42,363 nucleotides of DNA from Defluviicoccus sp. (GCA_022823775.1 JAJEHI010000082.1:1-42363); one strand, 5' to 3'. Counted from the stretch's first letter, positions 14,831-42,066 are shown. Program-made: numbers and translations. The notes: generated from the sequence alone by a model not told the origin.

Positions 14831-25141
<10,311 letters not shown>

Positions 25142-25234: not shown

Positions 25235-26995
25235 TCACTTTCCTCCGTCGGCGGCGGAAACCGGTGCCGCCACGCGGACGGTAACGATATCCGTGCCATG
25301 GAATTGCTGATGGCGCACCGACGACGCAAGGCGGCGCAGGAGCCGCAGCGATACCTCTCTTTCGGCCGGGGCTTCGCCGGGTTCCTCGGCGATCAGAGCG
25401 ACACGGTCCTGGATGTTGTCGTCGCGCGCGGCCACGACGAATTCGAGCACCGCGCCGTCGCCCTCCCGGCGTGCGACGAGGCGGAGCCGACGGGGTTCTT
25501 CCGCGGCTTCCTCTTGGCGGACGAGGCTCAGCAGCGTCTCCTCGCAGGCCGCGTCGAGCCGATCCGCCATGGCGGCGTCCCACCCGTTGCGCGTCGCGAA
25601 GGCGGCCAGGAATTCCCTGATCCTGGGCAATACCGAGAGTTCGAACGCAGATTCGATGCGGCTCGGGCGCGGTTGCGTCATCTCCACGAAAAGCGTCATC
25701 AGGATGACCGCGATGCCGCCCGAGGTGACTCCGTTCCGCAACAGCCCGCCGGCGAATTCGGAGATCTGCCCGGCAAAAATCATGTCATGCTGGAAGCCGA
25801 CGCCGATCCAGAAGGACACACCGACGATCAGGCCCTTGCGGTAATCGATCCCGTCCTGGATGACGATTTTCATGCCGACGATGAAGAGCATCGCCAGCAA
25901 CACGCCCAGATAGGCCGCGACCACGGGGCCCGGTATCGCGAGCACGACGGCCAGAAGTTTCGGCAGGAACGCCATGGCGATGAAGACCGCTCCCGTGGCG
26001 ATGCCGACGCCGCGGGCACCCACGCCGGTTAGCTCGGTCACCGATGCGCCCACCGTCGTGGCCGCGTTCGGCACCGTTCCGGCGAGACCTGACAGCAGGT
26101 TCCCCAGCCCGTCCACGGTGATCGCCCCCTGGACCGCCCGGAAATCCACCGCCCGCGGTCGGCGCCACGAGACCCGCTGGATGGCCACGGCGCCGCTGAC
26201 CGTCCGGATGGAAGCGATCATGGCGACGAGCACGAAGGCGGGCAGGAGCGCCCAGAAAGCCGATCCGAATTCGAGATCGAAGCCCGCCCATTCGCCCGTC
26301 GGCAGCCCGATCCAGGGCGCATCCGCCACACGGTCCACGTCGTAGAGGCCGTAGGCGGCGGCAACGCCCGTGCCGGCGAGGATGCCGATCATCGGCGCCC
26401 AGAGGCGCAGCGTTCCCGTTGCCTTCAGCGCGACCGCGGCGATCGCGACCACGGCCGCCAGCGCGCTCAGCGGTGCCGCCGGAGGCGGGCTCCCGGCGGG
26501 CACCGCGGTCAGCAGATCGAAGACCGGCGGCATCACCGTCACGGGAATCAGCATGATCACGGTTCCCGAAACCGTGGGCGTCAAGAGCCGCTGGAACACC
26601 GAGAGCCTGGCCGCGAGCACGATCGGCACGAGAGACGAGACGACAACGAGCGTCGCCAACAGCGCCGGGCCGCCCTCCGCGACCGCCGCGATGCAGACCG
26701 CGATGAAGGACCCGGTGGCTCCCATGATCACCACGTGCCCCGTCCCGATCCGCCAGACCCGGACCGCCTGCAGCATCGTGGTCGCGCCGCAGATCGCCAC
26801 CGTCGCGAACACCGCCCAGGAGAGATAGCTCTCGCTGGCGCCGCCGGCCCGCATCACGATCGTCGGGATCAATATGATGCCGGCGACGGTGAGCACGGCG
26901 ATCTGCAGCCCGAGACCGAAGGCAAGCGTGGGTGCCGGCCGCTCGTGGGGCTCGTAGCGGATGCTTCTGCGGCCGCCTGCCTGGGCGGCGCTCAT
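25235..26995 (-). CDS. NCS2 (xanthine/uracil-type) permease with RsbW-like C-terminal domain
   Basis: 586 residues. The first ~445 form a hydrophobic membrane protein with about 12-14 helices and NCS2 features: LAFGLGLQIAVLTVAGIILI at the start, RRPRAVDFRAVQGAITVDGL, GNLLSGLAGTVPNAATTVGA, and a late VIQDGIDYRKGLIVG block. Members carry purines, pyrimidines or ascorbate with protons or sodium. Residues 449-586 are soluble (SVLPRIREFLAAFATRNGWD, then LRLLRRLASSVRHQQF) and resemble the GHKL ATPase/anti-sigma fold of RsbW, but the N-box Asn is replaced in CEETLLSL and the G1 box is poor. The ATG at 26995 avoids overlap with the divergent gene. It could be co-transcribed with the PKS, 93 bases downstream. 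Substrate unknown. Confidence 0.82.
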   Translation of the reverse strand: MSAAQAGGRRSIRYEPHERPAPTLAFGLGLQIAVLTVAGIILIPTIVMRAGGASESYLSWAVFATVAICGATTMLQAVRVWRIGTGHVVIMGATGSFIAVCIAAVAEGGPALLATLVVVSSLVPIVLAARLSVFQRLLTPTVSGTVIMLIPVTVMPPVFDLLTAVPAGSPPPAAPLSALAAVVAIAAVALKATGTLRLWAPMIGILAGTGVAAAYGLYDVDRVADAPWIGLPTGEWAGFDLEFGSAFWALLPAFVLVAMIASIRTVSGAVAIQRVSWRRPRAVDFRAVQGAITVDGLGNLLSGLAGTVPNAATTVGASVTELTGVGARGVGIATGAVFIAMAFLPKLLAVVLAIPGPVVAAYLGVLLAMLFIVGMKIVIQDGIDYRKGLIVGVSFWIGVGFQHDMIFAGQISEFAGGLLRNGVTSGGIAVILMTLFVEMTQPRPSRIESAFELSVLPRIREFLAAFATRNGWDAAMADRLDAACEETLLSLVRQEEAAEEPRRLRLVARREGDGAVLEFVVAARDDNIQDRVALIAEEPGEAPAEREVSLRLLRRLASSVRHQQFHGTDIVTVRVAAPVSAADGGK

Positions 26996-27128
26996 CGGGT
27001 CGGCCGGCGGGCGGCGCGAAACTGCAATCGATCCTCCCTCGCGCGGTGTATCTTCCTCTCCCGCGGAAGGTCCCCCAACGGACGGCCGCGCGCAACATCG
27101 GAGCGTGAGGTCCCACGGAGAGTCACCA

Positions 27129-28835
27129 ATGGCGATGCAGCCCCCGATCCATGCCACCCATCACATGGTCGCCTCCGGTCATCACCTGGCGACTCAGGCG
27201 GGCTACGAGGTGCTCGAAGCGGGCGGCAATGCCGTCGACGCCGGGGTCGCGGCGGGGATCGCCCTCGGCGTGCTGCACAGCGATCTGGTGCAGTTCGCCG
27301 GGGTCGCGCCGATCATGATCTACCTTGCCGACGAGGACCGGGTCACGACGATCAGCGGACTCGGCTGGTGGCCGCGGGCCGCATCGCTCGAACGTTTCGT
27401 CTCCGAATTCGGGGGCCGAATCCCGGACGGCATCCTGCGGACCGTGGTCCCCGCCGCGCCCGATGCCTGGATCGCCGCGCTCGGGCGGTACGGCACGATG
27501 ACGTTCGCCGATGTCGCATCGGCCGCGTTTCGCTATGCGAACGAAGGGTTTTCGGTTCACCCGCTGATGGCCGGGAACCTCGCCGCCCATGCCGGCGAGT
27601 ACCGTCGCTGGGAGTCGAGTAGCGACATCTTTCTCCCCGGGGGAAAGCCGCCCGTCCCGGGCGAACGCTTCGTGCAGGCCGACCTCGCCGGCGCCATCCG
27701 ACACATGATCGACGAGGAGGCGGCGGCGCGGGGCGGGCGGGAGGCCGGCCTCGCCGCCGCGCGCGATGCCTTTTATCGCGGCGATCTCGCCCGCGCCATG
27801 GTGCGCTGCCACGAAGAAGCCGGCGGCTGGCTGACGATGGAGGACCTCGCGGAATACCGGAGCGCGGAAGAGGAGCCCGTGCTCGCGCGCCTCGGGGAGA
27901 TCGAGGTCTACACCTGCGGGCCCTGGTGCCAGGGGCCGGTTCTCGCCCAGATGGTCGGCCTGCTCGACGGGATCGAAATCGAGTCGCTGGGGCACAACAG
28001 CGCGCGATACGTGCACACGATCGCCGAGGCGATGAAGCTCTGCTTCGCCGATCGCGAACGCTATTACGGCGACCCGCGATTCGTGGACATTCCGCTCGCC
28101 CGGCTGCTTTCCCCTGGCTACAGCCGGGAGCGCCGGGCGCTCATCCGGCAGGACCGGACGTGGCCCGGCATGCCTCCGGCGGGCGGAGAGGACGCGTTGC
28201 GGGCCGCCGGACCGGAGACGAATGCCGCCGGCGGCCCGGTACCCGCTTCCCCGGACACGTCCTATTGTTGCGCCGTCGATCGCCACGGCAATTGCTTCTC
28301 GGCCACGCCGAGCGATGTCTCGTGGCAGTCGCCGGTCGTCCCCGGCACCGGCCTGTGCCCGTCCTCGCGGGGCTCGCAGTCCTGGGCGGTGCCCGGACAC
28401 GCCTCCTGCGTCGCGCCCGGCAAGCGGCCGCGGCTTACCCCCAACCCCGCCTTCGCGCGGGTTCGCGGGCGCTGGGCGATGCCGTTCGGAACTCCCGGCG
28501 GCGACGTGCAGACCCAGGCCATGCTCCAGGTCCTGCTCAACGTCACCCGGTTCGGGATGAGCACCCAGGACGCGATCGAGGCACCCCGCTTCGCCACGCA
28601 GAGCTTTCCCAACTCGTTCGAGCCGCATGAGGAATTTCCGGGTCGGCTGGTCGTCGAAGAGGGAATTCCGGACCCGGTCGCCCGGGAGCTCGCCGCGCGC
28701 GGTCACGATATCGAGCGGATCGAGGACCGCTCCGCCAGGATGGGGGCCGTGTGCGCGATCGAGCTCGACGTCCAGTCCGGAATCATGGAAGGCGGAGCGG
28801 ATCCGAGGCGGATGAGCCGCGCGATGGGCCGTTGA
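27129..28835 (+). CDS. Gamma-glutamyltransferase family protein
   Basis: 568 residues with the Ntn-hydrolase GGT pattern. The start MAMQPPIHATHHMVASGHHL is followed by AGGNAVDAGVAAGIALGVL. The heavy-chain part has FADRERYYGDPRF. The autocleavage site and nucleophile Thr lie in SPDTSYCCAVDRHGNCF, and GTPGGDVQTQAMLQVLLNV is the conserved small-subunit block. No signal peptide is seen, so a cytoplasmic GGT-like enzyme is likely, as in YwrD-type relatives. GGAG lies 8 bases before the ATG. It diverges from the permease and converges with the next gene, with 3 bases between stops. It could cleave glutathione conjugates or act as an acylase; the substrate cannot be told. Confidence 0.9.
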   Translation: MAMQPPIHATHHMVASGHHLATQAGYEVLEAGGNAVDAGVAAGIALGVLHSDLVQFAGVAPIMIYLADEDRVTTISGLGWWPRAASLERFVSEFGGRIPDGILRTVVPAAPDAWIAALGRYGTMTFADVASAAFRYANEGFSVHPLMAGNLAAHAGEYRRWESSSDIFLPGGKPPVPGERFVQADLAGAIRHMIDEEAAARGGREAGLAAARDAFYRGDLARAMVRCHEEAGGWLTMEDLAEYRSAEEEPVLARLGEIEVYTCGPWCQGPVLAQMVGLLDGIEIESLGHNSARYVHTIAEAMKLCFADRERYYGDPRFVDIPLARLLSPGYSRERRALIRQDRTWPGMPPAGGEDALRAAGPETNAAGGPVPASPDTSYCCAVDRHGNCFSATPSDVSWQSPVVPGTGLCPSSRGSQSWAVPGHASCVAPGKRPRLTPNPAFARVRGRWAMPFGTPGGDVQTQAMLQVLLNVTRFGMSTQDAIEAPRFATQSFPNSFEPHEEFPGRLVVEEGIPDPVARELAARGHDIERIEDRSARMGAVCAIELDVQSGIMEGGADPRRMSRAMGR

Positions 28836-28838
28836 GGG

Positions 28839-29783
28839 TCAGCCGGTGGCGAGATTCTGCTGGTCGGCCGCGTTGTAGTTGGCGTCGTACCACCAGGCGA
28901 GGTGGTCCCCGTATTCCACGGGCGGCCAGCGCGGCGGGTTGCCGGGGCCGGTGCAGGTCGGCGCGCAGCGGATCTCGGCGTCGAGATTGGGGCCGAAGAA
29001 ATAGGGGATCGCGTAGCGGCGGCGCCCGGCCGGAGGCAGCGCGCGGTGCGGGGTCGACTTGTATCGCCCGTTGGTCCAGCGGTGCAGCATGTCGCCGGTG
29101 TTGACGACGAAGGAGTCCTCGACGAAGGGCACGTCCTCCCAGCCGTCTTCTCCGCGCCGGATCTGCAGGCCCGGGACGCCCGACTGCGCCAGGAAGGTCA
29201 TGAAATTGACGTCCGTGTGGGGCGCGATGCCGTAGCGCCCCGGCTCGCGCTCGGCGGGCGGATAGTGCGAGAGCCGGAAGGAGAACTGGCCGCGCGTGAA
29301 ATGGGGCAGGAACCAGTCCTCCGGCAGCCCGAGGGACAAGGCGAGTGCCGGAAGCACGCTCACCGCCAGCCGGTCCACCGCCGCGCAATAGTCCAGAACG
29401 GTTTCCCGGAACCCGGGCAGGTCCGCCGGCCAGCGGTTGGGTCCGGCGAAACGCCGCCCCGCCAGCGGGTCGTCCGGTCCGCGCTCGCGCTTGATGAAGA
29501 AGGCCTCGTTCATGTCCGGCAGCGCGTCCTCGCTGACCCGCGAGGTCCTTACGTTGTACCGCGCCATCGCCATGTAGCCGTTGTTGTGCTCGTTCATCAG
29601 CAGGGCGTGCTTGGCGGCCTCCGGCTGGGCGTGGAACCGCTCCGCTTCGGCGAAGGTCCGCCGGATGAGCTCCCGGGGCACGCCATGGTTCACGACGATG
29701 ACGAAACCGACATGCTCCAGCGCATCCGCCAGCGCGCCGGCCACTTCGTATCGGCTCCGGGAGAGGTCGATCGACGGAATCAT
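28839..29783 (-). CDS. Isopenicillin-N-synthase-like 2-oxoglutarate/Fe(II) dioxygenase
   Basis: 314 residues. The DIOX_N segment is IDLSRSRYEVAGALADAL then GFVIVVNHGVP. The iron ligands are in APHTDVNFMTFL (His-x-Asp) and STPHRALPPAGRRRYAIPYF (distal His, then the Arg-x-Ser/Ala-type co-substrate region). Members hydroxylate, desaturate or cyclise small molecules; bacterial relatives are often annotated only as IPNS family. It stands alone between a convergent GGT gene and a divergent creatininase-family gene. Substrate unknown. Confidence 0.9.
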   Translation of the reverse strand: MIPSIDLSRSRYEVAGALADALEHVGFVIVVNHGVPRELIRRTFAEAERFHAQPEAAKHALLMNEHNNGYMAMARYNVRTSRVSEDALPDMNEAFFIKRERGPDDPLAGRRFAGPNRWPADLPGFRETVLDYCAAVDRLAVSVLPALALSLGLPEDWFLPHFTRGQFSFRLSHYPPAEREPGRYGIAPHTDVNFMTFLAQSGVPGLQIRRGEDGWEDVPFVEDSFVVNTGDMLHRWTNGRYKSTPHRALPPAGRRRYAIPYFFGPNLDAEIRCAPTCTGPGNPPRWPPVEYGDHLAWWYDANYNAADQQNLATG

Positions 29784-32904: not shown

Positions 32905-33588
32905 ATGCGGTTCCAGATTGGTCTCCTGCTGTTCCCGGACATCACCCAGCTGGATCTGACGGGGCCGTATGAGGTCTTCACCAAGTTCCCGGAAACGGAC
33001 GTGCACCTGGTTTGGAAGACGCTCGATCCGGTCCGGGCCGCCGGCGGCATGCGTCTTTTGCCTACCGAGACATTCGCCGACTGCCCCCGGCTCGACCTGA
33101 TTTGCGTGCCGGGCGGCGCGGGCATGAACCCGCTTCTGAACGACGAGGAGACGCTCGACTTCGTGCGCCGACAGGCGGAGGGCGCGCGTTACGTCACGTC
33201 GGTATGCACCGGCTCCCTGGTGCTCGGCGCGGCCGGGCTGCTCAGCGGCAAACGGGCGACGACGCACTGGATGTCGCATCCGATGCTCGCCGCCTTCGGC
33301 TGCGAGCCGGTGGCCGAGCGCGTCGTCGTCGACGGCGGCACGATAACCGGCGGCGGGGTGACCGCGGGGATCGATTTCGCCCTGACGGTCGCCGCGGAAC
33401 TGTTCGGGCCGGAAACGGCGCAACGGATCCAGCTCGCGCTCGAATACGATCCCCGGCCGCCTTACGATGCCGGGGGCCCGGCGCGGGCGGATGCCTCCCT
33501 GGTGGCGGCGGTGCGCGAGGCCTCGGCGGCGCGTCAGGGCGAGCGCGAGGCCGCGGTCCGCCGGGCGGCGGCCCGGCTGGGCCGTTAA
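32905..33588 (+). CDS. DJ-1/PfpI family protein, isonitrile-hydratase-like
   Basis: 227 residues. It begins MRFQIGLLLFPDITQLDLTG and has the nucleophile elbow TSVCTGSLVLGAAGLL. Asp17, Cys101 and Thr102 fall at the same positions as the key residues described for Pseudomonas isocyanide hydratase (InhA), which turns isonitriles into N-formamides. The length also fits. GGGAG precedes the ATG. The next gene, an MDR dehydrogenase, starts 15 bases downstream, so they are probably co-transcribed. Isonitrile hydration is plausible; other DJ-1 functions such as glyoxalase remain possible. Confidence 0.85.
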   Translation: MRFQIGLLLFPDITQLDLTGPYEVFTKFPETDVHLVWKTLDPVRAAGGMRLLPTETFADCPRLDLICVPGGAGMNPLLNDEETLDFVRRQAEGARYVTSVCTGSLVLGAAGLLSGKRATTHWMSHPMLAAFGCEPVAERVVVDGGTITGGGVTAGIDFALTVAAELFGPETAQRIQLALEYDPRPPYDAGGPARADASLVAAVREASAARQGEREAAVRRAAARLGR

Positions 33589-33603: not shown

Positions 33604-34629
33604 ATGAAGGCCATGGTCCTTTACGACCGGAAGGAACGGTTCCGGCTGGAAGAGCGCCCCGATCCCCGCCCCGGCCTGGGCGAGGCGGTGATGCGCGTGC
33701 GCGCGGCCGGGGTGGGGCTCACGCTGGTCAACATGCGGCTCGGTCGGATGGGCGGCTCCCTGCCGCGCGTCATGGGCCACGAGCTGGCGGGAGAGATCGT
33801 CGAGACCGGGGAAGGCGTATCCGCGCTCTCGGAAGGCGATCGCTGCGCGGTCTATTTCTATCTCACCTGCGGGCGCTGCCGCTGGTGCCGCGGCGGGCGC
33901 GAGACGCTGTGCGAGAATTTCGCGGGCTATGTCGGCGGTCACCGGGACGGCGGTTTCGCCGAATATGTCTGCCTGCCGGCGGAGAACTTCCTGCCGATTC
34001 CGGAGGGGTTGAGCGACGAGGCCGCGGCGGTCGCGGCCGATGCGGTCAACACCAACTGGCATTGCATGCGCGAACGCGCGCGTATCGGCCCCGACGGTAC
34101 GGTCCTGCTGATCGGGGCGGGCGGCGGTGTCGGCATTCACGGCGTGCAGGTGGCGAGGCTGTTCGGCGCGCGCGTCATCGCGGCGGACGTCTCCGAGGAA
34201 AAGCTCGATCTCGCGCGGCGATGGGGGGCGGAGCAGACGATAAACGTCCGAGCGGTCGAGGACGTGGCCGGGGAAGCGCGGCGCCTGACCGGGGGAAGGG
34301 GCGTCGACGCCGCGGTCGACTATGTGGGTCACGGCGAAACTTTCACGGCGGCGATCGACAGTCTCGCGACGTCGGGCCGGGCGGTGGTCATCGGCGTCGG
34401 CACCGGCGAGGCGCGCGTCGATCCGTCCGTCCTGGTCCGGACCGAGCGAGTGATCACCGGCTCGCGCCATTCGACCCGCGCGGAGACGATCGAGACGATG
34501 GAAATGATGACACGCGGTCCCGTGGAACCCGTCGTCGGCATGCGCGTGCCGTTCACCGAAGTGGAGACGATCTTCGATGCGCTCGAGTCCGAGACGCTGC
34601 TCGGCCGGGGCGCCCTGACTTATCCATGA
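33604..34629 (+). CDS. Alcohol-dehydrogenase-like MDR protein with structural zinc
   Basis: 341 residues. The structural zinc loop CGRCRWCRGGRETLC (from about residue 96) and the GHELAGEIVETGEGV segment are typical of zinc alcohol dehydrogenases. The nucleotide-binding motif is LLIGAGGGVGIHGVQVARLF at about residue 177. The usual catalytic-zinc Cys (CGTD or CHTD) is missing: the segment reads AAGVGLTLVNMRLG. So it may lack catalytic zinc and act more like a quinone or enoyl reductase. It follows the DJ-1 gene closely and its end overlaps or abuts the next gene (ATGA at 34626). Confidence 0.87.
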   Translation: MKAMVLYDRKERFRLEERPDPRPGLGEAVMRVRAAGVGLTLVNMRLGRMGGSLPRVMGHELAGEIVETGEGVSALSEGDRCAVYFYLTCGRCRWCRGGRETLCENFAGYVGGHRDGGFAEYVCLPAENFLPIPEGLSDEAAAVAADAVNTNWHCMRERARIGPDGTVLLIGAGGGVGIHGVQVARLFGARVIAADVSEEKLDLARRWGAEQTINVRAVEDVAGEARRLTGGRGVDAAVDYVGHGETFTAAIDSLATSGRAVVIGVGTGEARVDPSVLVRTERVITGSRHSTRAETIETMEMMTRGPVEPVVGMRVPFTEVETIFDALESETLLGRGALTYP

Positions 34630-34643
34630 GAGGAACGGACGAG

Positions 34644-35657
34644 ATGCGGAATATCCACCTTGTCGGCAGCGCTCCCTTCGCCACCGCCGAAGAGATGTTT
34701 CGCGCCGCCGCGCGTCATCTCGGTCCGCGTCTGAAACGCCTGCCCGACGGCGAAGTCGGCGAACGGGACAGCTGGATCAAATGGCAGCATGCGCGGATCG
34801 GCCGGAGCCCCCAGTTCCGGCTCGCGGATATCGTTCCGGTCTACGTGCCGGCGCCGCCCTACGAGCTCGTCGAGGGCGTGACCTCGGCCGACGCGATCGA
34901 GTTGCCCGATCTCGGCTACGCCGAGGCGGCGATCGCATCGTACGGAACCTTCCGGGAGCTGACGGAGGATGGCGCGATCCCGCCCGATACCCGCTTCCAG
35001 GTCGGACTGCCGACGCCGCTCTCGGTCGCGAGCGCCTATATCGTGCCCGCATCGCGCGCTACGTTCGAACGGGCTTACGCCCGCGCGCTGGCCGGCGAGC
35101 TGGAGCGGATCCTGGCCGCGGTCCCGGCGGCGAAGCTCGCCATCCAGTGGGAGGCGGCGGTCGAGTTCGCGCTGATCGAGGAGGTCTTTCCCGGCCACCT
35201 GGGCGACGACATGCTCGGCGGGATCGCGGATCGGCTGGCCGGGCTGGTCGACCTGGTGCCGGCCGATGTCGAAGCCGGCATCCATCTGTGCTACGGCGAT
35301 TCCGGACACAGGCATTTCTGCGAACCGGCCGATGCCCGTCACCTGGCCGATGTGGCCAACGGCGTCTCCGCCCGGGCGCGCCGCCCGATCGGCTGGATTC
35401 ACATGCCGGTGCCGAAAGAGCGCGACGACGACGCATATTTCGCTCCGTTGGCCGATCTCCGGCTGAAGCCCGGTTGCGAGCTCTATCTCGGCCTGGTTCA
35501 CATGACCGGCGGCATAGCGGGCACGCGCCGCCGCATCGCCGCCGCGGAAAAATTCGTGCGCGATTTCGGCATCGCCACCGAATGCGGGTTCGGACGCCGG
35601 CCCGCCGATACCATCCCCGACCTGTTCCGCCAGCACCTGGAAGCCGCGGAAGGGTAA
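34644..35657 (+). CDS. MetE/UROD-like zinc protein, paralogue 1 (function unknown)
   Basis: 337 residues, probably a TIM-barrel protein related to cobalamin-independent methionine synthase (MetE) and uroporphyrinogen decarboxylase. The start is MRNIHLVGSAPFATAEEMF. The segment RLPDGEVGERDSWIKWQ follows. AGIHLCYGD (His214, Cys216) matches the MetE zinc motif H-x-C-Y, and ATECGFGRRPADT near the end (Cys314) matches the MetE C-terminal Cys block. Such a site would activate a thiol or other nucleophile for methyl transfer. A paralogue lies at 37004-38101. The ATG at 34644 follows AGAGGA; an ATG at 34626 overlapping the previous stop is possible. The actual reaction is not known. Confidence 0.75.
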   Translation: MRNIHLVGSAPFATAEEMFRAAARHLGPRLKRLPDGEVGERDSWIKWQHARIGRSPQFRLADIVPVYVPAPPYELVEGVTSADAIELPDLGYAEAAIASYGTFRELTEDGAIPPDTRFQVGLPTPLSVASAYIVPASRATFERAYARALAGELERILAAVPAAKLAIQWEAAVEFALIEEVFPGHLGDDMLGGIADRLAGLVDLVPADVEAGIHLCYGDSGHRHFCEPADARHLADVANGVSARARRPIGWIHMPVPKERDDDAYFAPLADLRLKPGCELYLGLVHMTGGIAGTRRRIAAAEKFVRDFGIATECGFGRRPADTIPDLFRQHLEAAEG

Positions 35658-35692
35658 GGCCGGCAGAAATCGAACCGGTCGGCGACGCGGGC

Positions 35693-36985
35693 CTATCCTC
35701 GGTTCACGTACCGGTCGGGCGGAATCAGCGAGCGGACGTTGTTGACGATGTCCGTCGTGAGGCCGGTAAGCGCCCGGTAGTCGCGGGCGATGTCGAGCTC
35801 CTCCTCGCTCAGCACGTCCCGTATGTCATCGAAACCGTCCGGCGCGCGTTCCTCGACCAGCGGCATGAAATGTTCCGGCCCGCCCTTTCGATTGCCTCCC
35901 AGAACCCTGGTCATGGCGGGCAGACGCTCCGCCTCGTAGGCCTTGAGCGCGGCCTCGGGGTCGCCGGGATGCGCGGCCAGCTCGCGGCCCAGCGTCCGTG
36001 CGTCGACGATGGCGAGCGACGCGCCGTTGGAGCCGAGCGGCGTGATGGGGTGGGCCGCGTCTCCCAGGAGCGCCACGTTGCCGAAGACCCATCGCGGCAG
36101 AGGATCGCGGTCGACCATCGGATATTCCCAGATGCCGACGTTGCGGGCGACGATATCCGGCACGTTCGCCTAATCGAACTTCCAATCGACGAACGCGCCG
36201 GCGAAATCGTCCATCGAACCGGAACGATTCCAGTCCTCTTCGCGGTAATCCGTCCCTTCCGGCACGATCAGCTCGCAGATCCAGTTGAGCATGATGTCCG
36301 GCTCGCCGGGCCCGCGGCCGGCCGGTGGCTTCTTCACCTGGTAGGCGACGAATTTCTGCCGGTAGGTGCCCGCGACCACCATGGTCCGCCCGTCCAGAAT
36401 CCGGACGTCGTCGGTCGCGCCCCGCCACATGATGACGCGGTTCCAGTGCGGCGGTCTCTCGTCGGGATAGAAGTGGGCGCGCACGGTCGAGTGCACGCCG
36501 TCGGCGCCGATCAGAACGCCGGGGCTGACGGGATCGAGGGCCTCGCCCGTATCGCGGTCCACCAGATGCGCGACGGTCTTTCCGCCGGCCCGTTCGATCC
36601 GGTCGAGGCGGTGGCCGAGCTTCAACGCATCGTCGCCGAGGCGGCGCCGGACCTCGTCCGCCAGCATCGCGTGGAAGGCGCCCCGGTGCATGTGGAACTG
36701 GGGCCAGTCGAAACCGGCTTCGGTACCCAGCTTTTCGGTCAGCACGTGCTGGCCGCGCCGGGTGTAGTAGGCGAGGCCCCGGGCCGGGATGCCCAGGTCC
36801 CGCACCCGATCCTCCAGCCCGAGCTGAAACAGCTCTCGCACGCAATAGGGCTGTAGATTGATGCCGAGGCCCAACGGTTCGATCTTGCGCACCGACTCGT
36901 AGACCGTACAGCCGATGCCCAGCTGATGCAGCGTCAGGGCGGTGGCAAGGCCGCCGATGCCGCCGCCGACGATCGCGACGTCCAT
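35693..36985 (-). pseudogene. FAD-dependent monooxygenase interrupted by an amber codon
   Basis: A class A flavin monooxygenase (PHBH-like, flavin-dependent oxidoreductase) of about 430 codons. The FAD-binding motif VAIVGGGIGGLATALTLHQL is at the start, LIGADGVHSTVRAHF in the middle and LLGDAAHPITPLGSNGASL in the second part. An in-frame TAG at 36172-36170 (codon 272) splits it: the first part ends FVDWKFD and the same frame continues ANVPDIVARNVGIWEYPMVD. Relatives usually read F-D-W-L-D-V-P here, so a single TGG to TAG change explains the stop. All motifs on both sides are intact, so the lesion is recent, is a sequencing error, or is read through. Last gene of a minus-strand operon, 18 bases after the second MetE-like gene. 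Confidence 0.87.
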
Positions 36986-37003
36986 GGCCCCGCGCCCCCG
37001 GTC

Positions 37004-38101
37004 CTAACCCGCCAGCCGGTCGGCGCCCGCGGCGATATCGGTCAGCAGCTCGCGCACCCTTTCCGGCGTCTCGCGGCCATAGCCGCAATAGTGCGCCAGA
37101 CCGAAGTCCGGCAGAAACTCCTTGGCGGCGTCCGCACGCCGCATCATCGCGTCGACGCCGTCCGCCAGCTCGATGCCGAGGAAGATCCTGGCCTCGCCCG
37201 CCTCCAGGTCCCGGAGCGGGCGAAAGAAATCTTTGTCCGCGTCCCGCATGGACGGCAGATGGAAGAAGTCGACCCGCCGGGGCGTGTTGGCGCTGAGCGC
37301 GTTGGCGAGCCGGACGCAGAGCGAAAGGTCCTCCACCTCGGCCATTGGCCAGCCGCCCCAGGTGCCGTAGCAAAGGTGGTAGCCCATCGGGACCGTTTCG
37401 GGAATCGTCTCCGTCATCGGCGCGAGGTAGTCCCGGGACGTATATCGACGTATCCGCTCCTCGGTGGCGAGATCGTCCACGCCCGATCGGCCGTCGAGAT
37501 AGTTCCCGCGCGCGCCCATGATGTCGAGCACCTCCGAACAGTAGTCCCACTGGACCACCAGATCGTCCGCCGGAATGCGCTCGAGGATTTTCGCGATATC
37601 CGCCCGGATCGCCTTTTCGTATGCGCGGATCGCGACCGGATGGTCGGCGGGGTCGGGAAAGAAACCGACCGTCGCGTCGATCGTGCAGGGCAGCGAAACC
37701 TGGAAGGGGATGCCGGGCTCGACCCTGCCCTCTTCCCGCAGCCGCCGATAGATGCCGTACGATGCGACGGCCTCCCGGGCGTAGGGCAGGTCGAGCGCGG
37801 TTTCGGTGACGCCGGGCTTCAGCCTGTAGGTGCTGCGCGTCGCCTTCATCAGTTCCGGGTCGTGGCTCTCCGGGCTCTTCACCCGGTCCGGCGGCACGAC
37901 GCGGATCGGGTCGAGGTCCGGGTTTTTCGAGTAGGTCAGGTGCGGCAGCGCCTGGACCCAGTTCCTGCGATGCCCGATCTCGCCGTCCGGCAGCGCAAAG
38001 GCGCGGGCGCCCAGCGAGGCGGAACAGGTTTCGAGGACGTCGTCGACCGTTTCGAAGGGCACGCTGCCCACGAGAAGGACGCTTCCGGCGCGCGATGACA
38101 T
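37004..38101 (-). CDS. MetE/UROD-like zinc protein, paralogue 2 (function unknown)
   Basis: 365 residues, clearly related to the protein at 34644-35657. Shared features are LLVGSVPFETVDDVL at the start, ALPDGEIGHRRNWVQ, PFQVSLPCTID, LVVQWDYCSEVLDI, the zinc-type motif GYHLCYG (His242, Cys244) and the C-terminal HYCGYGRETPE (Cys339). The H-x-C to Cys spacing is 97 residues here and 100 in the paralogue. The ATG at 38101 has GGGGAG 6 bases upstream. It lies between an alpha/beta hydrolase and the amber-split monooxygenase on the same strand, so it is probably part of one pathway with them. The reaction is unknown; methyl transfer or a decarboxylase-like role are the options suggested by the fold. 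Confidence 0.76.
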   Translation of the reverse strand: MSSRAGSVLLVGSVPFETVDDVLETCSASLGARAFALPDGEIGHRRNWVQALPHLTYSKNPDLDPIRVVPPDRVKSPESHDPELMKATRSTYRLKPGVTETALDLPYAREAVASYGIYRRLREEGRVEPGIPFQVSLPCTIDATVGFFPDPADHPVAIRAYEKAIRADIAKILERIPADDLVVQWDYCSEVLDIMGARGNYLDGRSGVDDLATEERIRRYTSRDYLAPMTETIPETVPMGYHLCYGTWGGWPMAEVEDLSLCVRLANALSANTPRRVDFFHLPSMRDADKDFFRPLRDLEAGEARIFLGIELADGVDAMMRRADAAKEFLPDFGLAHYCGYGRETPERVRELLTDIAAGADRLAG

Positions 38102-38148: not shown

Positions 38149-39324
38149 TCACCCTTCGAGCAGGTTCCGCTTGCGCAGCCATTCGACGGTCAGGCCGATT
38201 GCCTCGTCCATCTGTTCCGGCTGATTCTGGTAATAGTGCGTCGCGCCCTTGACGACGCGATGCTCCTTGTCGGCGCTGGCCGTGGCATCGAAGATCATGC
38301 GGCTATGCGGCTGGGGGACGGCGTCGTCGGCGCTGTTCTCGATGGCCAGCAACGGCACGCCGATCTTCGCCGCGTTCTCCGGTCCGTCCGCGCGGCTCTC
38401 GTCATAGCTCCATTGGCTGAGCCACGAGCGCAGGGTCGAGAAGCGGCCGATGCCCACCGGCCCGCTGTTGACGGTCTCCGGATCGCCCAGATAACACCAG
38501 TTCGGCTTGCGGTCGTTGGGGTCGATCAGGGGGTCGAGGAAGCGCGGGTCGGCCATGGTGCGGTGGACGATAAAGCCGCGCTCCAGCTCCTTGCCGCCCC
38601 TGGCTTTCAGCTCCTCAAGCGTCTCGCGCACCCGGGCGGTAATCTTGCGGTTCCGGGCGATCTGGGCGGCGCGGTAGCGCTCCACGAACCCGGCGTCGAA
38701 AGGCGGGCCGTTCTCCCGATTGTACATGTCGAGTTCGGGGTCGCGGTCGTCCGGATTCTGCTCGTCGCGGACCGAGGGGTCGATCCACTCGGTCATGGTT
38801 CTGGCGCGCGACAGGTGCGCCGCTTGGAAGGTTATGGCGTCCACCGGGATCAGACCGGCGCCCGCCACGTCCACCGGGTCGCCCGCCGGCGTGTCGACGA
38901 TCGTCGGGTTCTCCGCCTGGGCCTGGTAGAAGAGGGAGAGGGCGCCCCCGCCGGACCAGCCGCCCAGCACGATCTTCTCGTAGCCCCATTCCTCCTTTGC
39001 GGCACGGATCCAGGCGCCCATGTCGAGCAGCACCTTCTCGAAGATCAGCGCGGAGTCGTTCTTGGGATAGCGGCTGCCGGCGCACAGCACATGCACGCCG
39101 TAGGTCGGCAGCGCCCGGGTCACGGGAAGCAGTTGCAGCGTCGACGCCGGATGCATGAAGATCATCAGCGTCTTCGAGTCCCGGCCCCGGGGCGTGTAGT
39201 GGACGCCTTCCAGGTTCACGTTGCCGACCGAGCCGGCAAACCCGTATGTCTCGGTGAATTTCGAGACCTCGTTGAACTGGACGTGACGCCAGGTGGCGTC
39301 GGTTTCGAACGACGACTCCGCCAT
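38149..39324 (-). CDS. Alpha/beta hydrolase, large type
   Basis: 391 residues. The oxyanion region is LMIFMHPASTLQLLPVTRAL. The nucleophile elbow is IVLGGWSGGGALSLFYQAQA, the acid is in AIENSADDAVPQPHS, and the catalytic His is in VVKGATHYYQNQPEQ. A long insertion of about 150 residues after the nucleophile (ERYRAAQIARNRKITAR) probably forms a cap. No signal peptide. A GGGAGAGGGAAGAG stretch precedes the ATG. It is the first gene of the minus-strand operon with the second MetE-like gene and the monooxygenase, and diverges from the SnoaL-TauD-ACMSD operon. It probably hydrolyses an ester or C-C bond of the pathway substrate. Confidence 0.86.
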   Translation of the reverse strand: MAESSFETDATWRHVQFNEVSKFTETYGFAGSVGNVNLEGVHYTPRGRDSKTLMIFMHPASTLQLLPVTRALPTYGVHVLCAGSRYPKNDSALIFEKVLLDMGAWIRAAKEEWGYEKIVLGGWSGGGALSLFYQAQAENPTIVDTPAGDPVDVAGAGLIPVDAITFQAAHLSRARTMTEWIDPSVRDEQNPDDRDPELDMYNRENGPPFDAGFVERYRAAQIARNRKITARVRETLEELKARGGKELERGFIVHRTMADPRFLDPLIDPNDRKPNWCYLGDPETVNSGPVGIGRFSTLRSWLSQWSYDESRADGPENAAKIGVPLLAIENSADDAVPQPHSRMIFDATASADKEHRVVKGATHYYQNQPEQMDEAIGLTVEWLRKRNLLEG

Positions 39325-39594: not shown

Positions 39595-40134
39595 ATGGAC
39601 CGAAGCGGGAACGGCAAGTCGCTGGAAGCGCGGTTGCGGGACGTCGAGGACAGGCTCGAGATCTACAACCTGATCGCGTCCCACCCGCCGAGCGCCGATA
39701 CCGGGGCGGACTATTACACGCGCGTCGTCTACGCCGAGGACGGCAGTTTCGACCGCGGCGAAGGTCTCACCGGCGCCGTCGGCAACGAGGCGATCGCCGC
39801 GATGACCCAGACGCAAGGGCACCGGCGCGCCATCGAGGGCGGGCTCGCGCATTTCGCCGGGTTGCCGCATATCGAGATCGACGGAGACGCGGCGTATGTG
39901 ACGTCGTATCTTCTGCTGCTCCATCCGGACGCATCGGGCGAGCCCCGGGAGCTGCCAAATCACGGGTATTCGCCGGGCTTTCGCATCCATCGCGTCGCCG
40001 CCAACCGGTGGATACTGGCGCGAACGCCCGGAGGGTGGAAGATCGAGAGCCGTAAGCTGCGCCCGCTCGACGGATCGCCGCCCGCGCGCGAGATCCTCGA
40101 GCAGGCGCTTGCCGCCTATCGTCCGGCGGATTAG
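39595..40134 (+). CDS. SnoaL/NTF2-like protein
   Basis: 179 residues with the cone-shaped NTF2 fold pattern of the SnoaL_4 type: LRDVEDRLEIYNLIASHPP, DYYTRVVYAEDGSFDRGE, HIEIDGDAAYVTSYLLLL and WKIESRKLRPLDGS. In ring-cleaving and steroid pathways such proteins act as small dehydratases, isomerases or binding partners. GGAGG lies 7 bases upstream of the ATG. First gene of a plus-strand operon; the TauD gene starts 13 bases after its stop. Confidence 0.82.
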   Translation: MDRSGNGKSLEARLRDVEDRLEIYNLIASHPPSADTGADYYTRVVYAEDGSFDRGEGLTGAVGNEAIAAMTQTQGHRRAIEGGLAHFAGLPHIEIDGDAAYVTSYLLLLHPDASGEPRELPNHGYSPGFRIHRVAANRWILARTPGGWKIESRKLRPLDGSPPAREILEQALAAYRPAD

Positions 40135-40147
40135 GGACTTCGGGCAC

Positions 40148-41017
40148 ATGGCTTTCGAGGTTAATCGGCTCGGGGACCGGTTCGCGGCGGAAATCGTCGG
40201 CATCGATCTCTCGCGACCGCTGTCCGACGAGGAGTTCGCGGCGGTCCGCGAGGCGTGGTTCGACGCCGGCGTCGCGGTCTTCCGCGACCAGCACCTCACC
40301 CCTGCCGAACAGGTCGCCTTCAGCCGCCGGTTCGGAAAGCCGATCGTGCATGTCATGAGCCAGTTCCTGCTGCCCGGTCACCCGGAGATCCTGCTGCTCT
40401 CCAACAAGAGGCACCCGGACGGCACGCCGGTGGGTTTCGAGGACGCCGGCCGGTACTGGCATTCGGACATCTCCTACGACGAACGCCCGGCGATGGGATC
40501 GCATCTCTACGCGGTGGATATCCCGCCCGCGGGCGGCGACACCGTGTTCGCCGACATGCGGCATGCGCTGGCGACCCTGCCGGACGACCTCCGCCGGCGC
40601 GTCGACGGACGGTGGGCGCGCCATTCCTATACGCGGAACTGGCGCAGGAACGAGACGGTCGAAGGCGGCCGGCCGGCCGTCAGCGCCGAGCAGCGGGACA
40701 GGCTGCGCGAGGTCTCCCATCCCATGGTCCGCGGGAACGAGGACACCGGCGAAGAGGCGTTGTTCGTAAACCCCGGGTTCACCTTCGCCGTCGAGGACAT
40801 GGACGAGGCCGAAGGCGAAGCGCTTCTTGCCGCGCTCTTCGAGCACAGCACCCGGGAGGCGTTTGTCTATACCCACCGGTGGCGGCCCCGCGACCTGCTG
40901 TGCTGGGACAACCGCACCGTCATGCACCGGGCAACGTCGTACGATCCGGCCCATACGCGGCACATGCACCGCACCACCATAGCCGGCGGCCGTCCCGTCC
41001 AGGCGGCGTATCGATGA
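40148..41017 (+). CDS. TauD/TfdA-family 2-oxoglutarate dioxygenase
   Basis: 289 residues. Iron ligands are in YWHSDISYDERPAMGS (His-x-Asp) and TVMHRATSYDPAHTRHMHR (distal His and the Arg that binds 2-oxoglutarate). The start EVNRLGDRFAAEIVGIDLSR and AGVAVFRDQHLTPAEQ are standard for the family. Relatives oxidise taurine, sulfate esters or aryloxyalkanoates such as 2,4-D. The ATG at 40148 was chosen over the upstream in-frame start because the family domain begins there. Its stop overlaps the next start (ATGA), so the two are coupled. Confidence 0.9.
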   Translation: MAFEVNRLGDRFAAEIVGIDLSRPLSDEEFAAVREAWFDAGVAVFRDQHLTPAEQVAFSRRFGKPIVHVMSQFLLPGHPEILLLSNKRHPDGTPVGFEDAGRYWHSDISYDERPAMGSHLYAVDIPPAGGDTVFADMRHALATLPDDLRRRVDGRWARHSYTRNWRRNETVEGGRPAVSAEQRDRLREVSHPMVRGNEDTGEEALFVNPGFTFAVEDMDEAEGEALLAALFEHSTREAFVYTHRWRPRDLLCWDNRTVMHRATSYDPAHTRHMHRTTIAGGRPVQAAYR

Positions 41018-42066
41018 TCGTCGACATTCACTGCCACTACGTCCCGGAGGCCTATTTCCGTTTCATCGAACGCGAGGAGGCTTTCGACGTTCGCCGTTCC
41101 ACGACCGGCGACGAAGCGGTAGAGGTGGAGATCGGGCGCGCCGGTTTCGCCATGAACAGGACGTTCTTCGACCCCGGGCGGCAGCTGCGCCGGATGGACG
41201 GGCTCGGGATCGACCTCAGCGTCCTGTCGCTCGCGACGCCGCTCATCGACTACGCCGCGCGGGCGGACGCGGCGCTCGCCGCCGCCCGGATCTTCAACGA
41301 CGAGCTCGCACTGCTCAGGGACCGGCACCCCGACCGCTTCGACGGCTGGGCCTTCCTGCCGATGCAGGATCCCGCGCGGGCGGCGCGGGAACTCCGGCGC
41401 GCAGTGGCCGAGCTGGGTTTGCGCGGTGGGCACATCGCGTCCAACGTCGGCGGCCGCTATCTCGACAGCCCGGAATTCGCCCCGGTGTTCGAGGCCGCGG
41501 TCGATCTCGACGTGCCCCTCTTCGTCCACCCAAGCAACCCCGCGGGTGCCGACCGCACCGGGCGCTTCGAGCTCACGGTAGTCAGCGCCTACCTGTTCGA
41601 CACCACGATCAACATCTTCCACATGATCTTCGGCGGGATGCTCGACCGATACCCGACGCTGAAGTTGTGCTGCGCCCATGCCGGCGGCTACGCCCTCCTG
41701 CTCCGGGCCAGGATGCAGAGGGAGGCGGACACCAACCCCGGCCTCGCCGAAACCGTCTCGGGCACGGTCGACGATTACCTGGGGCGCCTCTATTACGACA
41801 CGGTGTGTTTCGAGGACGGCTACCTTGCCTACGCCTCGGAACTGGTCGGGCCGGACCGGCTGGTGCTGGGCAGCGACGGTCCGTTCCCTCTCGGCGAGCC
41901 GGACCCGGTGGGGTTCGTCCAGCGCGCGTTCGGAGACGACCCCGCCGGCGCCGACATCCTGCGGCGCAACGCCGCCAGGATGTTCAATCTCGCCGGGCAG
42001 GAGCCCGGGACATGGAAGCCCGTGACGCCGTCTCCACCGCCCCGGGAGCGCCCTCGTCCCGAGTAG
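41014..42066 (+). CDS. ACMSD-like amidohydrolase (amidohydrolase 2 family)
   Basis: 350 residues of the amidohydrolase-2 family, which includes 2-amino-3-carboxymuconate semialdehyde decarboxylase and gamma-resorcylate decarboxylase. Metal-site residues: MIVDIHCHYVPEAYF (His6 and His8), VPLFVHPSNP, LKLCCAHAGGYALLLRARM and VLGSDGPFPLGEPDP. These fit a zinc-dependent non-hydrolytic decarboxylase of aromatic or muconate acids, although hydrolases occur in the family. Overlaps the TauD stop by 4 bases. A proline-rich tail of about 20 residues follows the domain. Last gene of the operon. Confidence 0.89.
   Translation: MIVDIHCHYVPEAYFRFIEREEAFDVRRSTTGDEAVEVEIGRAGFAMNRTFFDPGRQLRRMDGLGIDLSVLSLATPLIDYAARADAALAAARIFNDELALLRDRHPDRFDGWAFLPMQDPARAARELRRAVAELGLRGGHIASNVGGRYLDSPEFAPVFEAAVDLDVPLFVHPSNPAGADRTGRFELTVVSAYLFDTTINIFHMIFGGMLDRYPTLKLCCAHAGGYALLLRARMQREADTNPGLAETVSGTVDDYLGRLYYDTVCFEDGYLAYASELVGPDRLVLGSDGPFPLGEPDPVGFVQRAFGDDPAGADILRRNAARMFNLAGQEPGTWKPVTPSPPPRERPRPE

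Follow-up and report, generated by a model that had tools for sequence, protein, structure and literature searches.

A 42,363-nt stretch of DNA from Defluviicoccus sp., referred to here as the window, encodes two proteins that resemble part of cobalamin-independent methionine synthase (MetE). The two genes lie on opposite strands, with a monooxygenase gene between them. The locus raises three questions: whether the two proteins belong together, how closely their predicted zinc site matches that of MetE, and what reaction they may catalyze.

Two paralogs in separate gene modules

The first protein, A, is encoded at 34644–35657 on the plus strand (337 aa), with an alternative start at 34626 (+) that overlaps the stop codon of the preceding alcohol dehydrogenase gene as ATGA. 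The second, B, is encoded at 37004–38101 on the minus strand (365 aa); its start at 38101 is supported by orthologs in two other stretches, L009 and L010, that start at the same place. Both coding sequences are full-length and encode MetE-like single-barrel proteins; the two are homologous, sharing 32% identity across 354 columns (E 1e-48). A has the motifs H214-L-C216-Y-G (H214-L-C216 at 35283–35291, +) and C314-G-F-G-R (35583–35597, +), with 100 residues from the His to the last Cys. B has H242-L-C244-Y-G (H242-L-C244 at 37370–37378, −) and C339-G-Y-G-R (37073–37087, −), with a spacing of 97. A first-pass annotation had described opposite-strand homologs with H-x-C-Y-G and C-G-[FY]-G-R motifs spaced by 97–100 residues, and was exact in both coordinates and motifs.

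In the family tree, A and B belong to different deep clades, i.e., they are distant paralogs, and an origin by tandem duplication is ruled out. A is preceded by genes for a DJ-1/PfpI protein (32905–33588, +) and a zinc-type alcohol dehydrogenase (ADH; 33604–34629, +). The same order recurs in genome G004, where DJ-1, alcohol dehydrogenase, the A ortholog, and RidA are encoded in one direction. B is directly followed by a gene for a PhzS-like FAD monooxygenase (35693–36985, −), and an alpha/beta hydrolase gene is located upstream of it (38149–39324, −); an 85% identical copy of this hydrolase adjoins a family member of the other clade (L068) in G001. Because the clades differ and the DJ-1/ADH/A module is separate from the B/monooxygenase module, A and B are not a tandem pair.

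The RidA gene also adjoins the A ortholog in G002 and related members in G001 and G003, and is convergent with the G015 member. After A in the window, RidA’s place is occupied by the end of the monooxygenase gene. From ~31–35 RidA domains per genome, a rough estimate, not a formal test, puts the chance of direct adjacency at ~1% per gene; finding it again in three subclades is therefore probably not due to chance. The 4.8-Mb source genome is rich in organic-acid uptake and MetE-like proteins, with 67 DctM TRAP permeases, 31 RidA domains, and 20 PF01717 matches. TRAP transporters were considered as a recurring partner and rejected, being not clearly enriched; ~0.2 per 14 kb are expected from the number of permeases.

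The two proteins had also been annotated as a pair flanking a monooxygenase. An FAD monooxygenase gene does lie between them, but it is broken by an in-frame TAG (36170–36172), which reflects either recent damage to the gene or an error in the assembly. An intact homolog (L010:8124–9407) is located beside a B ortholog, is 75% identical across the TAG break, and is itself PhzS-like (2RGJ/3C96, E 7e-82). The position of A and B, within 3.5 kb and on either side of the gene, would suit joint action on the product of the monooxygenase. We consider such joint action highly improbable given the separate deep clades, the broken monooxygenase, and the occurrence of A orthologs (G002, G004) and B orthologs (L009, L010) without each other in the stretches read. 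A and B sit in two modules and are unlikely to form a functional pair around one monooxygenase.

Other parts of the window encode further enzymes. A 3436-aa ORF (14831–25141, −) starts like a type I polyketide synthase, with a ketosynthase motif. A gamma-glutamyltranspeptidase gene (26961–28832, +) lies beside a gene for an isopenicillin-N-synthase-type 2OG oxygenase (28842–29783, −), a few kilobases from A. Genes for SnoaL_4, TauD-type dioxygenase, and amidohydrolase_2 proteins are located in the same direction at 39631–42000 (+), possibly as a separate catabolic operon.

A MetE-like barrel and its predicted zinc site

The predicted structures of A and B, from a structure-prediction alignment of seven rows, are complete UroD/MetE TIM barrels (pLDDT 82 and 86, pTM 0.86 and 0.89, respectively). 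For both models, the top match among solved structures is the core methionine synthase MesD (3RPD), with Z 22.6 and rmsd 3.4 over 288 residues for A, and Z 23.1 and rmsd 3.3 over 291 residues for B. Lower matches to the two models are MetE (Z ~21), UROD (17–18), MtaA-type/Methanosarcina methyltransferases (~17), and unrelated barrels (~13). Both models are therefore nearer to MetE/MesD than to UROD, although UROD-like chemistry may be compatible with the lower UROD score. Searched alone against the sequences of solved structures, B gave only chance-level matches. A profile of the family aligned with the C-terminal half of E. coli MetE and PF01717 proteins at 99.2% probability (E 3e-18, 320 columns). 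This alignment pairs S9, E37, E170, H214, C216, and C314 of A with S433, E484, D599, H641, C643, and C726 of MetE, the roles of which are taken from PMC7857596. H214 and C216 are the predicted first and second zinc ligands, and C314 is the last. S9 (34668–34670, +) is aligned with the homocysteine-binding S433, E37 lies in P34-D-G-E37 (34743–34754, +), and E170 lies in Q168-W-E170 (35145–35153, +). Together, the models and the profile alignment back the initial reading, in which the catalytic barrel resembles that of MetE and probably has a zinc site.

The predicted zinc ligands are conserved across the family. In 47 members, the motif His, Cys, and Cys show no variation; once plasmid-borne homologs from other phyla are added, 51 of 52 members retain them, and hence they are not a product of chance. 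First-His-to-last-Cys distances range from 95 to 107 residues (median 99). Other nearly invariant residues (A numbering) are S9, P34-D-G-E37-x-G-x-R41-x-x-W44, Q168-W-D/E170, R247, P255, G283, and C314-G-x-G-R; the position of MetE Asp599 is thus Asp or Glu in the family, and Glu in A.

The correspondence with the zinc ligands of MetE, claimed for the motifs at first pass, holds for the His and the two Cys but fails for the remaining ligand: three of the four are matched, because the Glu665 position is non-acidic here. Indeed, a conserved Glu or Asp at this position was found in none of the 52 members. Profile alignments with several template sets were used to place Glu665; those that align the strand put its column near P255, about two residues past the invariant H253 and on the same strand, and one of them has a low-confidence register there. 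His-x-Cys and the late Cys are well supported as predicted zinc ligands. The fourth ligand is probably the invariant His, i.e., H253 in A (35400–35402, +; strand 251–255), a candidate substitute for Glu665, and H281 in B (37259–37261, −; strand 279–282). The near-invariant D262, in the loop after the H253 strand, is another candidate. Because Glu665 aligns near P255 and is off H253 by two residues, we put forward the fourth ligand as a proposal. Positions 214, 216, 253, and 314 read HCHC in 50 of the 52 members, across Alphaproteobacteria, Actinomycetota, and Bacteroidota. The exceptions are a Rhodococcus member with Ser in place of H253, and a degenerate Bosea member. The latter, a divergent plasmid relative (L080:7908–8801), is located in an aromatic-degradation cluster and has both predicted zinc Cys replaced (Asp, Ser); its sequence suggests that it is possibly a zinc-free derivative.

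The likeness to MetE, which consists of the 320-column profile match and three of the four zinc ligands, comes with several differences. MetE has two barrels (~750 aa), with an N-terminal Meth_synt_1 domain, whereas A and B are about half that length. The folate domain PF08267 has no match in A or B, and none over the cut-off in the source genome. The first-pass view that both proteins are too short for MetE and lack its folate domain is therefore sound, and MetE identity is ruled out by length, the absent folate domain, and the absent Glu ligand. Spacings also differ: the His-to-last-Cys distance is 85 residues in E. coli MetE, below the family range; the first His and the third-ligand candidate are 24 residues apart in MetE and 39 here; and the Ser433-to-Glu484 segment is 51 residues in MetE and 28 here, such that the binding pocket must differ. 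Among PF01717 (COG0620-type) proteins, Listeria 1YPX was the one suggestive match in a family-profile search of solved structures, a weak hit (E 0.011) over the HxC and CG blocks, and the DGE motif is common to both. In the third-ligand strand, the PF01717 proteins used for comparison have an acidic residue, which family members lack.

The structural match raises the prospect of a folate-independent (core) methionine synthase of the MesA–MesD kind. Like the family, these enzymes have a single catalytic barrel without a folate domain, and the homocysteine-binding Ser, Glu/Gln, and Asp. MesD in particular shares with A and B the single MetE-like barrel, the His-x-Cys and late Cys, and the homocysteine-binding Ser/Glu/Asp as aligned through MetE (3RPD; PMC7857596), at 14–16% identity. 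However, the zinc set of MesA–MesD is HC(E/D)C, with His as the second ligand in MesC (PMC7857596), as opposed to the HCHC of the family. MesD keeps the Glu zinc ligand and works with MesX (PMC7857596), whereas the acidic residue is missing from A, B, and every other member. The contexts of the family are accessory and catabolic, and MesX (PF08908) had no match in 26 genomes, in a search run without a positive control. Moreover, the presence in the host of MetH and of six paralogs of the family points away from methionine synthesis as their role. We regard a core methionine synthase as improbable.

UroD-branch methyltransferases, i.e., MtaA/MtbA, aromatic O-demethylases, and epoxyalkane:CoM transferase, share with the family the superfamily fold and the His-x-Cys...Cys zinc set of the S-methyltransferases (PMC10418091). 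They differ from the family in their lower structural scores (Z ~17). In addition, URO-D (PF01208) has no Pfam match in A, B, or 37 relatives, and among the annotated neighbors, which are a subset of all neighbors, neither a corrinoid protein nor another methyl carrier was recognized.

Distribution and gene neighborhoods of the family

A, B, and the 37 relatives have no match to any Pfam or NCBIfam model, and none reaches the gathering cut-off of PF01717 (Meth_synt_2). No description of the family turned up in literature searches; the annotated members found are all named “hypothetical protein”, and none has an assigned function. The source genome, an alphaproteobacterial assembly, encodes its six copies in addition to its 20 separate PF01717 matches. 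The family is common in the source’s order, being present in 20 of 97 related genomes, and was found in just 2 of 398 genomes sampled evenly across the phylum. Plasmid-borne members occur in Rhodococcus opacus 1CP, Arthrobacter, Streptomyces, and Spirosoma. One genome-scan match, L013, was a false hit and not a family member. We conclude that the known UroD/MetE superfamily includes here a new and unmodelled family, which has an altered zinc site and occurs in a new pathway setting.

A survey of genomic context bears out the catabolic setting suggested at first pass, and shows it to be specifically aromatic in the conserved operons of relatives. In four genomes of the source’s order (G007, G010, G012, and G016), the family member lies between two genes in the same direction, preceded by one for a 4,5-dihydroxyphthalate-decarboxylase-like protein (E 2e-90 to 9JP7) and followed by one for a flavin reductase. 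In G015, the family member comes after genes for an FAD oxidoreductase and for a pyrogallol transhydroxylase homolog, the latter with both of its subunits (E 5e-72 and 2.5e-292). Other neighbors of relatives include an MhpA-type hydroxylase and a benzoate-CoA-ligase-family protein in G003, the latter with a homolog in G001; UbiD and thioesterase genes; and a reductive-dehalogenase-like protein that adjoins the B ortholog in L009. This aromatic setting is limited to part of the family, with many A-like members having no informative neighbor. A PF01717 protein is directly beside a family member in L011, L100/L076, and L059 (genomes including G018 and G022).

In L098:7899–13999 (−), from an alphaproteobacterium, both subunits of a pyrogallol transhydroxylase homolog and an FAD oxidoreductase are encoded directly upstream of the family member. 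In L011:1993–5539 (+), the family member lies between two PF01717 paralogs (74% alike), all in one direction.

Possible chemistry

In the UroD/MetE superfamily, a His-Cys-Cys zinc sphere is associated with S-methyltransferases and sulfur substrates, whereas replacement by a carboxylate is associated with oxygen substrates (PMC10418091). Since both Cys are kept and the homocysteine-binding positions align, a zinc-activated amino-acid thiol is the most economical reading. We propose that A, B, and their relatives act in aromatic catabolism as zinc-thiolate S-alkyl(methyl)transferases, and not as methionine synthases, with a probability of roughly 0.45. The computed evidence for this reading is the fold, homology, residue conservation, and operon partners; from it we infer zinc binding, the thiol, the alkyl donor, and the direction and chemistry of transfer, including methyl transfer by A and B. 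In such a mechanism, a single-domain TIM barrel would carry one zinc coordinated by His-x-Cys, the late Cys, and a fourth ligand of an unusual kind. A small amino-acid thiol, either homocysteine or cysteine, would be bound at the Ser/Glu/Asp(Glu) positions, which are retained, and its sulfur would be activated by the zinc. The thiolate would then accept a methyl or other alkyl group, independently of folate, from an aromatic or related catabolic intermediate. This step could come before or after one catalyzed by a flavin monooxygenase, decarboxylase, or transhydroxylase, and each paralog would have its own substrate.

The neighboring oxygenases suggest a different use of the thiol. Epoxyalkane:coenzyme M transferase conjugates a thiol to an electrophile, and serves as the model for an enzyme that would add a thiol to an epoxide, quinone, or haloarene made by a neighboring monooxygenase, with no methyl transfer. 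The superfamily and His-x-Cys...Cys set are the same, and PhzS-like and MhpA-like monooxygenases, a flavin reductase, and a reductive-dehalogenase-like protein are among the neighbors. However, a gene for the next step, such as a beta-lyase or CoM-type reductase, was not seen in the annotated neighborhoods, and the Ser/Glu/Asp triad is retained, which suits an amino-acid thiol and not CoM. By analogy, thiol conjugation may occur, but it is unlikely.

It is similarly doubtful that the zinc acts as a Lewis acid without any thiol, i.e., that the MetE-type scaffold supports a hydrolase, lyase, or decarboxylase that acts on intermediates of ring cleavage or on hydroxy-aromatic ones. Neighboring genes encode decarboxylase-like proteins, UbiD, alpha/beta hydrolases, and thioesterases, and the loss of Glu665 alters the site and might leave the zinc open to a carbonyl. 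We know of no case of such activity in the MetE branch. The models’ closeness to MetE/MesD and the two invariant Cys ligands, which favor soft sulfur substrates (PMC10418091), argue against it. Of the methyl-transfer or decarboxylation step envisaged in the first-pass annotation, the decarboxylation part gains no positive support from the data, as both models are closer to MetE/MesD than to UROD and the His-Cys-Cys set is the one reported for S-methyltransferases.

More tentatively, the family may represent a new enzyme class of aerobic bacteria, in which a MetE-type barrel with a His-Cys-His-Cys zinc site would remove alkyl groups from aromatic catabolic intermediates, or tag these intermediates, by means of an amino-acid thiol; in some operons, a second MetE-like barrel (PF01717) would take part. 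Neither Pfam nor NCBIfam includes the family, although it occurs in multiple copies in an alphaproteobacterial order and has a full set of catalytic residues. Its operons indicate substrate classes, i.e., pyrogallol-type and phthalate-type aromatics and PhzS-like hydroxylation, which makes the chemistry directly testable. The family could extend the aerobic catabolism of aromatics by a step that depends on a thiol.
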